Both the position numbers and the translations under genes were made by a program. Shown here piece after piece: positions 19,502 through 36,759 of a DNA stretch of 36,759 nucleotides (positions within the stretch are counted from its first letter, which is position 1; the number at the start of each line of letters is the position of its first letter). Source of the stretch: Kibdelosporangium persicum. Lineage in GTDB: Bacteria; Actinomycetota; Actinomycetes; Mycobacteriales; Pseudonocardiaceae. The notes below the pieces were generated by a model. That model was not told the origin of the DNA and ran no database searches. It was given only the letters and a program-made list of their open reading frames with translations. Location: contig NZ_JAAATY010000059.1 of assembly GCF_013280595.1 (NCBI RefSeq), positions 1 to 36,759 of the forward strand. The letters are read 5' to 3'.

Positions 19502-19717
19502 ATGACGAATCCGTTTGAAAACGACGACTGGGCATATCTGGTGCTGATGAACGACGAGGAGCAGTACTCGTTGTGGCCGGAGCCGATCGACGTTCCCGCC
19601 GGGTGGACGGTCGTGCACGGACCCGGCGACCGGGCCGAGATGACCGCGTACGTGGAGCGGGAATGGGTTGACATGCGGCCCAAGAGCCTCCGCGAGGCGA
19701 TGGCGGAGGGTGCGTGA
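19502..19717 (+). CDS. MbtH-like NRPS accessory protein
   Basis: 71 residues from the ATG at 19502 ([26 protein letters not shown]). The MbtH signature is complete: NPFEN near the N-terminus, the Q-Y-S-L-W-P motif, the conserved Trp pair around the PAGW motif, and WVDMRPKSL near the C-terminus. The upstream in-frame start at 19442 adds residues not found in the family. MbtH proteins bind adenylation domains and help them fold and activate amino acids. Here it would serve the NRPS encoded downstream. Its TGA overlaps the GTG of the halogenase (GTGA), so translation is coupled. Confidence 0.96.
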
Positions 19718-21312
19718 CGATGCCGGGGGACGGCGTAAGGCGTGTGGTCATCGCGGGTGGCGGCACGGCCGGGTGGATGACTGCCTCGTATCTCAAGGCC
19801 GCCTTCGGCGAACGGGTCGACGTGACGCTTGTCGAGTCCGCCAAAGTCGGGACCATCGGTGTCGGTGAGGCGACTTTCAGTACGGTCCGTCACTTCTTCG
19901 ACTATCTCGGTCTTGTCGAGAGCGAGTGGATGCCAGAATGCAACGCGACGTACAAACTCGGTATCCGGTTCGAGAACTGGCGGGAAGCCGGGCATCATTT
20001 CTATCACCCGTTCGAACGGTTACGAGTGGTCGACGGTTTCCCGCTCACCGACTGGTGGCTGGCCGGCGGCCCATCCAGCAGGTTCGACGCCGACTGCTTT
20101 GTCATCCCCGCGCTGTGCGAGGCCTTGAGCTCGCCACGGCACCTGGACGGGCGACTGTTCGAAAGCGACCTGATCGAGGGCAGTGGCCGGGTCTACCGGA
20201 CGACATTGGCGGAGCAGACCACTCAGTTCCCGTACGCCTACCACCTCGACGCCGCGTTGCTGGCCGAGTACCTGACCCGGTACGCCACGCGTCGCGGCGC
20301 GCGGCGCGTCGTCGACGACATCACCAACGTCAGCCTCGACCAGCGCGGCTGGATCGAGCACATCGACACCAGGGAACACGGCCCGATCACCGGTGACCTG
20401 TTCATCGACTGCACGGGCTTCCGTGGCCTGCTGATCAACGGCGCGATGGACATGCCGTTCGAGTCGTATCAGGACTCCCTGCCCAACGACCGCGCGGTCG
20501 CGCTGCGTGTGCCCGCGGCCGGGCGGCATTCCGACATGCGGCCCTGCACCACCGCCACCGCGCAGGAGGCGGGCTGGATCTGGACGATCCCACTGTTCGG
20601 CCGCAACGGCACCGGGTACGTCTACGCGGGCGACTACTGCACGCCCGACCAGGCCGAGAAGACGCTGCGCGAGTTCGTCGGTCCGGCGGCCGACGACGCC
20701 GAGGCCAACCACATCCGGATGCGGATCGGCCGCAACCGGGAGTCCTGGTACCACAACTGTGTCGCGATCGGACTTGCCAGCGGGTTCGTCGAACCACTGG
20801 AGTCGACCGGGATCTTCTTCATCCAGCACGCCATCGAGCAGTTGGTCAAGCACTTTCCGGGAGCTGACTGGGATCCCGCGGTCCGCCGGTCGTACAACAA
20901 CACGGTGGCCAGGTGCATGGACGGGGTCCGTGAGTTCCTGGTCCTGCACTACAAGGGCGCCAAGCGGGCGGACAACGACTACTGGCGGGACGCCAAGACG
21001 CGGGTGATCCCCGACGGGCTCGCCGAGCGACTGGAGCAGTGGCAGACCAAACTGCCGGACACCGAGTCCGTTTTCCCGTACTACCACGGGTTCGAACCGT
21101 ACTCGTACGTCTGCATGCTGCTCGGGCTCGGCGGGATCCCGGTGCGGCCGCCCCAGGCGGTCCGGCAGATGCCCGAGCGGCGCACGCTCGACGAGTTCGC
21201 GTTCATCCGCAGGCAGGGCGCCGAGCTTGTCGCGTCCTTGCCGTCGCAGCGGGACTATCTCGCCAGTCTGCGCGGTTCCGTCGACCTGCATCCGGCTGGC
21301 TCGGTACCGTGA
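19714..21312 (+). CDS. FADH2-dependent tryptophan halogenase (PyrH/SttH-like, Trp-5 or Trp-6 type)
   Basis: 532 residues from the GTG at 19714 (an ATG at 19720 is possible). Features seen: FAD motif GGGTAG (15-20), catalytic lysine in [11 protein letters not shown] (Lys81, matching PrnA Lys79), WIWTIP (288-293, the WxWxIP motif that limits monooxygenase activity), and [10 protein letters not shown] with Glu363/Ser364 matching PrnA Glu346/Ser347. The stretches [27 protein letters not shown] and LVLHYKGA track the Trp-5 halogenase PyrH much more closely than the Trp-7 enzymes as I recall them. It chlorinates the free tryptophan indole using FADH2, O2 and chloride. Regiochemistry (5 or 6) cannot be settled here. 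A TTA codon (20020-20022, Leu103) adds possible bldA control. It overlaps the antiporter start by GTGA. Confidence 0.94.
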
Positions 21313-36200: not shown

Positions 36201-36759
36201 GCGAAGACCAGCCCGACGACCGGCGACTGGTGGCCTACGTCGTCCCGGCCGGTCATGTGAGCGACGACGGTTCGGTGCAGATCGAGGAATGGCGTCAGAC
36301 CTACGACTCCATGTACGCACGCCCGACCGATCTCGTGTTCGGTGAGGATTTCACTGGTTGGGATAGTTCGTATACGGGTGTGCCGATTCCGTTGGGGGAG
36401 ATGCGGGAGTGGCGTGCTGCTGTGGTGGAGCGGGTTCGTGGGTTGGGTGCTCGTCGGGTGTTGGAGGTGGGGGTTGGGTCTGGTTTGTTGTTGTCGCGGT
36501 TGGCTGGTGAGTGTGAGGTGTATTGGGGTACGGATTTTTCGGCTGCGGTGGTTGGTCGGTTGTCTGGTCAGGTTGAGGCTGCGGGGTTGGCTGGTCGTGT
36601 GGTGTTGCGGTGTCAGGCGGCGGATAGTGTTGTGGGGTTGCCGTCGGGGTTTTTTGACACTGTGGTGTTGAACTCGGTGGTGCAGTATTTCCCGAGTGGT
36701 GGGTATTTGGCGCGGGTGTTGGAGCAGTTGCTGGATCTGGTTGTTCCTGGTGGCCGGGT
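23075..36759 (+). CDS. Multimodular nonribosomal peptide synthetase, 3' end beyond window
   Basis: Start at the GTG at 23075, six bases after AGGAG (23064-23068). One frame matches every domain motif I checked across the window, giving at least 4,561 codons; I found no stop at the module junctions. Order: C1-A1(MT)-T1, C2-A2-T2, C3-A3-T3, C4-A4(MT, cut). It assembles a peptide from amino acids activated as adenylates and carried on phosphopantetheine serines (residues 1353, 2386 and 3443). No epimerase domain or thioesterase is seen. MT domains sit between A8 and A9, so positions 1 and 4 should be N-methylated. The absence of a C-terminal docking segment, the coupled MbtH and the halogenase fit a long line of modules continuing to the right. 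The product class is unknown; a chlorinated, N-methylated peptide is the best inference. Confidence 0.95.
27290..30335 (+). other. NRPS module 2: C-A-T, candidate (chloro)tryptophan module
   Basis: C2 is LCL-like with HHVAGDGWS (His pair at 1533-1534) and [11 protein letters not shown]. The A2 pocket residues read DVAQVGAVCK, with the V-G-A-V pattern seen in aromatic-activating domains. With a tryptophan halogenase in the operon it is the best candidate for (chloro)Trp among the modules in view. The A3 core is [10 protein letters not shown], with Ala replacing a conserved Thr, a mild departure that may still allow ATP binding. A10 is normal (NGKVDR). T2 has GGHS at Ser2386. No epimerase follows, so the residue should stay L unless changed elsewhere. 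Confidence 0.8.
30385..33515 (+). other. NRPS module 3: C-A-T with unusual code
   Basis: C3 carries HHIAGDGWS (His pair from residue 2568) and [12 protein letters not shown]3 has [10 protein letters not shown] (3054-3063). The pocket residues read DAFFWGEVFK, starting like Val/Ile codes (DAFF) but with Trp at position 299 and Glu at 322, which I cannot match. The Glu may favour a polar or basic side chain. A10 is NGKLDR. T3 has GGHS at Ser3443. The alignment in this stretch ([12 protein letters not shown]) is by eye, so single positions could be off. Confidence 0.78.
33560..36759 (+). other. NRPS module 4: C-A(Thr)-nMT, cut by window edge
   Basis: C4 has HHIAGDGWS (His pair from residue 3625) and [12 protein letters not shown]4 has [10 protein letters not shown] (4090-4099), FDFSVWEIW and [10 protein letters not shown]. 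Pocket residues DFWNIGMVHK are the textbook threonine code. After A8 an N-methyltransferase begins (about residue 4400) with [12 protein letters not shown] and VLEVGVGSG (4462-4470), nearly the same protein motifs as in module 1 but with very different codons. The rest of MT, A9-A10 and the carrier lie beyond the window. The predicted residue is N-methyl-L-threonine. Confidence 0.85.

Follow-up and report, generated by a model that had tools for sequence, protein, structure and literature searches.

The stretch of DNA analysed here (the window) is the whole of contig C59 (positions 1-36759) of Kibdelosporangium persicum, whose 10.35-Mb genome is assembled in 89 contigs, and its right-hand part carries the beginning of a nonribosomal peptide synthetase (NRPS) gene cluster that includes a tryptophan halogenase. 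Five genes follow one another on the forward strand: an MbtH-like protein (19502..19717; Pfam MbtH, 4.8e-25), a PyrH-type flavin-dependent tryptophan (Trp) halogenase predicted to be of the 5-type (19714..21312; Trp_halogenase, 6.8e-139), a CPA2-like cation/proton antiporter (21309..22562; Na_H_Exchanger, 2.6e-26), a flavin reductase presumed to supply the halogenase with FADH2 (22559..23059; Flavin_Reduct, 3.3e-29), and the first NRPS, NRPS-A, which starts with GTG at 23075 and is still open at the contig end (23075..36759, modules 1 to 4). The first three junctions are 4-base overlaps (GTGA, GTGA, and ATGA), and a 15-bp spacer (23060-23074) lies between the reductase stop and the NRPS start. 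The coordinates and Pfam matches thus bear out the gene content, order, and junctions given by an initial annotation of the window. Its naming of the antiporter as CPA2 held in part, since CPA2 (TIGR00932) was the best NCBIfam match at 75.5 bits, below the cutoff of 238.3 bits, and the gene matched the broader Pfam family. The reductase ends in a PLLYGLR-Y-SW tail that is also found in its relatives.

The Pfam search of NRPS-A showed four Condensation (C), four AMP-binding (A), three carrier (T), and two methyltransferase (MT) stretches, in the order already proposed, C-A-MT-T, C-A-T, C-A-T, C-A-MT. Module 1 (23099..26400, with a carrier up to about 27290) contains a weakly matching C domain (23099-24364), an A domain with the code DFWGACFVMK, and a methyltransferase. 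The motif of its C domain is HHLVLDT instead of HHxxxDG (HHLVMDD in the equivalent domain of the homologous cluster described below), and this might be a starter-type domain; no acyl-activating gene was found among the genes examined. Module 2 (27293..30388; C domain, 27293-28636) has DVAQVGAVCK as its code, which we read as specifying Trp or chloro-Trp, and module 3 (30389..33559; C domain, 30389-31744) has DAFFWGEVFK, of the aliphatic type, each followed by a carrier. Module 4 (33560..36759; C domain, 33560-34897) has DFWNIGMVHK, which we take to specify Thr, and the start of a methyltransferase (36455-36757) that is cut by the contig end. All these genes and modules lie on the forward strand.

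C59 terminates within this methyltransferase at a 167-bp repeat (36593..36759, forward strand), whose only other exact copies in the genome lie at either end of C77, a contig of 4,445 bp. This repeat is the cause of the assembly break at the end of C59, and C59 and C77 were separated because modules 4 and 5 carry methyltransferase DNA (36338-36759 of C59 and the end of C77) that is identical over 422 bp. The minus strand of C77 is a single open frame encoding a methyltransferase end, a carrier, a C domain, an A domain (module 5, DVFSVGIVYK), and a methyltransferase start. A third contig, C37, starts inside a C domain and continues with an A domain (module 7, DAWTVAAVCK), a methyltransferase, a carrier, and a stop, which is the end of NRPS-A; it is followed by NRPS-B, a protein of 5,182 amino acids with four A domains (modules 8 to 11; DVAQVGAVCK, DIVQLGLVWK, DAWQYGLVQK, and DILQLGVVWK). 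The second and third of these four modules also contain a methyltransferase each, and the protein ends in a Thioesterase domain (2.7e-29). The window NRPS, C77, and C37 thus show by Pfam the repeating C-A-(MT)-T units and the release domain of a modular NRPS. The description of the locus as a compact operon therefore had to be abandoned, given that C77 and C37 extend the cluster and add a second NRPS as well as a precursor operon. The contig ends at 36759, and the modules to be read to the right of the window were found on those two contigs; the four-module order initially set against known peptides represented a fragment of the line. Another NRPS of the same genome is also split at exact repeats, the ends of contigs C8, C76, and C11 having 104 to 167 bp in common.

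The three contigs are assigned to one cluster chiefly because they align in order on a single locus of a complete genome from the genus of Actinoalloteichus spitiensis (G023). The genus is that of another genome, G061, in which the halogenase has the same coordinates as in A. spitiensis. This genome carries an intact homologous cluster with seven modules in NRPS-A and four in NRPS-B, on which C59 occupies positions 24489-38264, C77 occupies 38103-42572, the start of C37 occupies 48714-51986, and NRPS-B occupies 52046-67756; C59 and C77 abut with the expected overlap. Protein identities were 67% for an aminotransferase-like protein encoded at the left edge of the common region, 82% for MbtH, 66% for the C59 part of NRPS-A (end to end), 73% for C77, 67% for the end of NRPS-A on C37, and 69% for NRPS-B. 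For the products of five genes downstream of NRPS-B, they were 83% (PanD-like), 73% (SbnA-like), 68% (ASL-like), 67% (ATP-grasp), and 67% (GHMP kinase). The halogenase, antiporter, and reductase had no match in the 80-kb G023 region that was compared. When the first C domain served as the query, G023 was the only other genome recovered among 390 genomes of the family (E value, 1e-100) and again among 397 of the order (1e-90), while among 394 genomes of the class (1e-70) four other genomes were recovered, with only 35 to 36% identity. The rarity of the cluster is a rough statement, because these sets overlap and include the source genome, those of the order and class are samples, and three first-look candidates were scored per genome.

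The A-domain codes, compared over 9 letters each, were in agreement with this alignment. Thus, 4 of the 10 comparable modules had identical codes in both genomes (modules 2, 3, 7, and 9: DVAQVGAVCK, DAFFWGEVFK, DAWTVAAVCK, and DIVQLGLVWK), and the other six differed at one to four letters, G023 having DFFAICLVMK in module 1, DFWSVGMVHK in module 4, DVFAVGIVFK in module 5, DVGQVGAVCK in module 8, DAWQHGFVTK in module 10, and DILQLGVIWK in module 11. Nonmatching module pairs (n = 100) differed at a mean of 5.45 letters. The G023 counterpart of module 6, which is missing from the K. persicum assembly, has the code DAWTVAAVCK. In that cluster, modules 5 and 6 have methyltransferases that are 93% identical; since those of modules 4 and 5 are the identical pair in K. 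persicum, neighboring methyltransferase domains seem to have been homogenized independently.

The 11-module, two-protein cluster spread over C59, C77, and C37 probably makes an N-methylated undecapeptide with 5-chloro-Trp at module 2, module 8, or both. NRPS-A (modules 1 to 7) and NRPS-B (modules 8 to 11 plus the thioesterase) would assemble the chain, with MbtH aiding adenylation; the flavin reductase would provide FADH2 to the halogenase, which would convert Trp to the 5-chloro-Trp loaded by modules 2 and/or 8, and the thioesterase would close the ring. With codes that we assume to denote Phe, Tyr, Thr, and Gly, the predicted order is N-Me-X1, Trp/Cl-Trp, aliphatic, N-Me-Thr, N-Me-X5, (N-Me-Phe), N-Me-Phe, Trp/Cl-Trp, N-Me-Gly, N-Me-X10, and Gly (Me, methyl; X, placeholder). 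N-Methyltransferases were found in modules 1, 4, 5, 7, 9, and 10, and another is expected by homology in module 6, for a total of seven N-methylations.

The chlorination step is suggested by the halogenase motifs and by the code that modules 2 and 8 have in common. Among solved structures, those closest to the enzyme are Trp 5- and 6-halogenases, and the catalytic motifs sought (GxGxxG, WxWxIP, the catalytic Lys, and the Glu) were all found: GGGTAG at position 15, WIWTIP at 288, K81, and VEPLESTG at 359. From the offset, we take K81 to be equivalent to K75 of PyrH. The motif scheme of PMC8269204 places 5-type enzymes in group B1, with ATFSTV (Trp1), HPFER (Trp2), QxxQ (Trp3), and FES (Trp4), and gives LPP as the fourth motif of 6-type enzymes. 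The window halogenase has ATFSTV, HPFER, and QTTQ, agreeing with the 5-type in three of the four motifs and with the 6-type in none. Its full four-motif set is common to 5 of 79 related halogenases, one of them in Streptomyces noursei A-2-1, and PMC7459860 reports 5-Cl-Trp in the noursamycins of S. noursei ATCC 11455. The NRPS in the halogenase region of strain A-2-1, which would be the noursamycin cluster, starts with the code DVAMAGAVTK, identical to DVAQVGAVCK at 6 of 9 letters; DVAMAGAVTK also occurs somewhere in the genome of Streptomyces curacoi DSM 40107. The code of modules 2 and 8 is of the aromatic type, and by analogy Trp is most likely, given the halogenase. Thus, the chlorinated, N-methylated peptide proposed initially is still the best reading, with 5-chloro-Trp a plausible but unproven component.

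Several observations weigh against it. The fourth motif of the halogenase is FEP, and not the FES of 5-type enzymes. The comparison with S. noursei presumes that the A-2-1 region is the noursamycin cluster and that its first residue would be chloro-Trp. Codes of the aromatic type, including those for Phe and Tyr, match DVAQVGAVCK at 5 of 9 letters, and among the best-matching A domains in six halogenase-bearing genomes those with Tyr, Phe, and other codes were as near as the Trp-like ones; because other aromatic codes are nearly as close, Trp at modules 2 and 8 is an analogy. The string DVAQVGAV was not found in a text search of the open-access literature, and the residues of modules 1, 3, 5, and 10 are placeholders or class-level predictions. 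The G023 locus keeps nearly the same codes without a halogenase, and chlorination is therefore not needed for the assembly line. Finally, the assembly lacks about 6.1 kb (42572-48714 of G023) between C77 and C37, with module 6 in this gap, and a comparison of contig ends showed no shared end between C37 and C77 or the other ends tested, so that the contiguity of these two contigs is taken from synteny. The FEP motif would fit a halogenase that is active but acts on a substrate other than free Trp or at a position other than 5, yielding 6-chloro-Trp or chlorinating a carrier-bound or finished peptide. Both 5- and 6-halogenases are among its structural neighbors, and according to PMC7459860 several NRPS-linked halogenases prefer carrier-bound substrates; with three motifs exactly of the 5-type and the whole set found in S. 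noursei, this alternative appears rather unlikely.

The same locus in G023 raises the question of whether the halogenase, antiporter, and reductase were lost there or gained in K. persicum. Between its MbtH gene and NRPS-A, G023 has about 700 bp where the window has three genes, and the last 52 bp before the ribosome site of its NRPS align to the 3' end of the window reductase gene; the alignment takes in its final two codons and the stop. The score of this alignment (32) was reached by none of 20,000 shuffles and none of 22,582 other segments, and the matched stretch coincides with the PLLYGLR ending common to relatives. The 10 bp beside the ribosome site could be conserved for other reasons; without them, the score fell to 24, which was reached by 15 of 20,000 shuffles. 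Thus, a reading of the aligned DNA points to a cassette that was likely lost in the G023 lineage. Insertion into the cluster of the K. persicum lineage is ranked second because of this apparent remnant and appears rather unlikely, but it would agree with the lack of all three genes at the G023 locus, with the presence of the closest halogenases (up to 72% identity) in unrelated clusters, and with an unanchored search of the whole G023 gap against the whole reductase gene, which was not significant (140 of 2,000 shuffles were as good). No halogenase or antiporter remnant was seen in that gap. G023 also has a separate halogenase and antiporter 325 kb from the NRPS cluster (stretch L178, 4517-13106), where an MbtH gene lies at a distance of about 5 kb and no reductase match was seen; chlorination in trans is therefore possible in G023.

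That the cluster is silent or decayed, with no product, is improbable: it is a prediction read from DNA and the assembly lacks part of the NRPS, but the NRPS genes on C59, C77, and C37 have long open frames without stops (4,561, 1,481, 1,102, and 5,182 codons) and the catalytic motifs are intact. Least likely is that C59 and C77 are separate from C37, the former ending elsewhere and the latter being a second, related peptide cluster; the lack of overlap between C77 and C37 would allow this, as would the several NRPS clusters indicated by 54 Condensation matches spread over many contigs, but in G023 the same modules and flanking genes form one locus on one complete contig, with the pieces 66 to 83% identical and in order, and C59 lacks a thioesterase while C37 lacks the start of its first NRPS gene.

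The undecapeptide cluster is thus a genuine orphan that belongs to an already known kind of NRPS system and has a well-supported architecture; no matching compound was found in text searches of the open-access literature, and the product may be new. The closest system, the G023 cluster, has the same aminotransferase, MbtH, NRPS-A, NRPS-B, and terminal thioesterase, followed by the same five genes, all arranged alike, and differs in lacking the three cassette genes and in the six codes given above. The noursamycins and curacomycins of the desotamide family would share 5-Cl-Trp with the predicted product, and in S. noursei A-2-1 the halogenase with the same four motifs is followed by an antiporter and a reductase, with a first-module code near DVAQVGAVCK. 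However, the noursamycins and curacomycins have six residues and, according to PMC7459860, a stand-alone cyclase, whereas eleven modules, seven expected N-methylations, and a C-terminal thioesterase are found here; the C-terminal thioesterase and the 11 modules of the G023 cluster also set it apart from a 6- to 10-residue line with a stand-alone cyclase. The remaining systems were compared by description only. Gausemycin clusters (PMC12471526) have a halogenase, a reductase and a cation/H+ antiporter in the cluster of one strain, cysteine-synthase- and argininosuccinate-lyase-type genes in that of another, and diaminobutyric acid (Dab) in the peptide, but their products are 4-Cl-kynurenine peptides with sugars, made by another NRPS plan. 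The ohmyungsamycin/ecumicin systems (PMC6920865) are also large actinomycete NRPSs with a thioesterase and with N-methyltransferases in modules 1, 4, 6, 8, and 9, but they have 12 modules and methoxy-Trp instead of chloro-Trp. Taromycin (PMC9113097) contains chloro-Trp, as predicted here, with another length and other tailoring. Kutznerides and the longicatenamycin group, likewise with chloro-Trp, also have other lengths and tailoring.

To examine the neighborhood of such halogenases, 79 halogenase loci were kept of 312 relatives, 5 of them on contigs with less than 3 kb downstream; these loci share descent, and the counts are not independent. The order was halogenase-antiporter-reductase in 21, halogenase-reductase-antiporter in 6, halogenase-antiporter in 1, and halogenase-reductase in 28, with neither gene in 23. 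An antiporter lay within 3 kb in 36 of the 79 loci, and with three antiporter queries, 31 genes fell at 0 to 2 kb downstream versus 0 to 4 in each of nine other 2-kb bins. MbtH was directly 5' of the halogenase in two loci, both without an antiporter downstream. In the K. persicum genome, the halogenase family gave five matches in four genes (on C59, C46, C37, and C30), the first three of which adjoin one of the ten PF00999 genes of the genome, compared with an expected share of about 0.5% of genes with a PF00999 neighbor within 2 kb (an arithmetic estimate); no PF00999 gene was found on C30. On C46 (stretch L007, 16129-19087), the start of a second Trp halogenase overlaps the end of an antiporter gene, and Condensation domains occur on the same contig; its nearest structures are of the ThaL/BorH/RebH type. 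On C37 (stretch L016, 9654-13389), a distant halogenase-like FAD enzyme lies about 30 kb to the right of NRPS-B, and an antiporter gene is found 650 bp from it on that strand. The rebeccamycin protein RebU is a further case of an antiporter beside a halogenase. The neighborhood is therefore not new, an antiporter in a halogenated-peptide cluster being mentioned already in PMC12471526, but no paper on its meaning was found in an open-access literature search. The antiporter is an accessory that often accompanies such halogenases. A more speculative and less likely reading is that cation/proton antiporters work together with flavin-dependent halogenases in actinomycetes, perhaps relieving hypohalite or electrophile stress by proton exchange, and that halogenase, antiporter, and reductase form a tailoring cassette retained by some clusters and discarded by others, the same undecapeptide line occurring with and without chlorine. 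Kef systems offer a parallel for protection by proton exchange.

The five genes 3' of NRPS-B on C37 (stretch L176, 32-5009), which are kept in G023, are of the PanD, SbnA, ASL, ATP-grasp, and GHMP-kinase types. Only PanD passed its NCBIfam cutoff; the SbnA-type pyridoxal phosphate (PLP) synthase, the ASL-type lyase, and amino acid kinase types were all present, each below it. Such genes resemble routes to diaminopropionate or 2,3-diaminobutyrate, and by analogy the putative precursor operon may make an unusual residue or starter, for which modules 1, 5, or 10 may be candidate users. Open-access literature searches on a diaminobutyrate route returned no description of it.

To the left of the MbtH gene, the PLP aminotransferase-like gene that marks the edge of the common region lies on the reverse strand (18111..19394; Aminotran_1_2, 2.5e-36; every NCBIfam match below the cutoff). 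It is preceded on the forward strand by a BTAD/TPR regulator of the AfsR/SARP-like type (15157..18051; BTAD, 5.1e-29), a possible cluster regulator; its membership is uncertain because the G023 regulator is closer to one on C37 (55% identity) than to the window regulator (46%). Positions 1-15000 carry a TetR-type regulator, a redoxin, a glyoxalase, an FAD/BBE oxidase, and others, none of which had a match in the compared 80 kb of G023. Scans of the window for Rfam families and tRNA genes gave no match.

The truncated contig thereby yields a defined target: a peptide of eleven residues that is N-methylated, probably cyclic, and predicted to contain 5-chloro-Trp. The two clusters, of K. persicum and G023, are a natural pair of which one has chlorination genes at the locus and the other does not, so that the contribution of the chlorine can be studied. 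The analysis also raises the testable question of why halogenases of different classes adjoin cation/proton antiporters.

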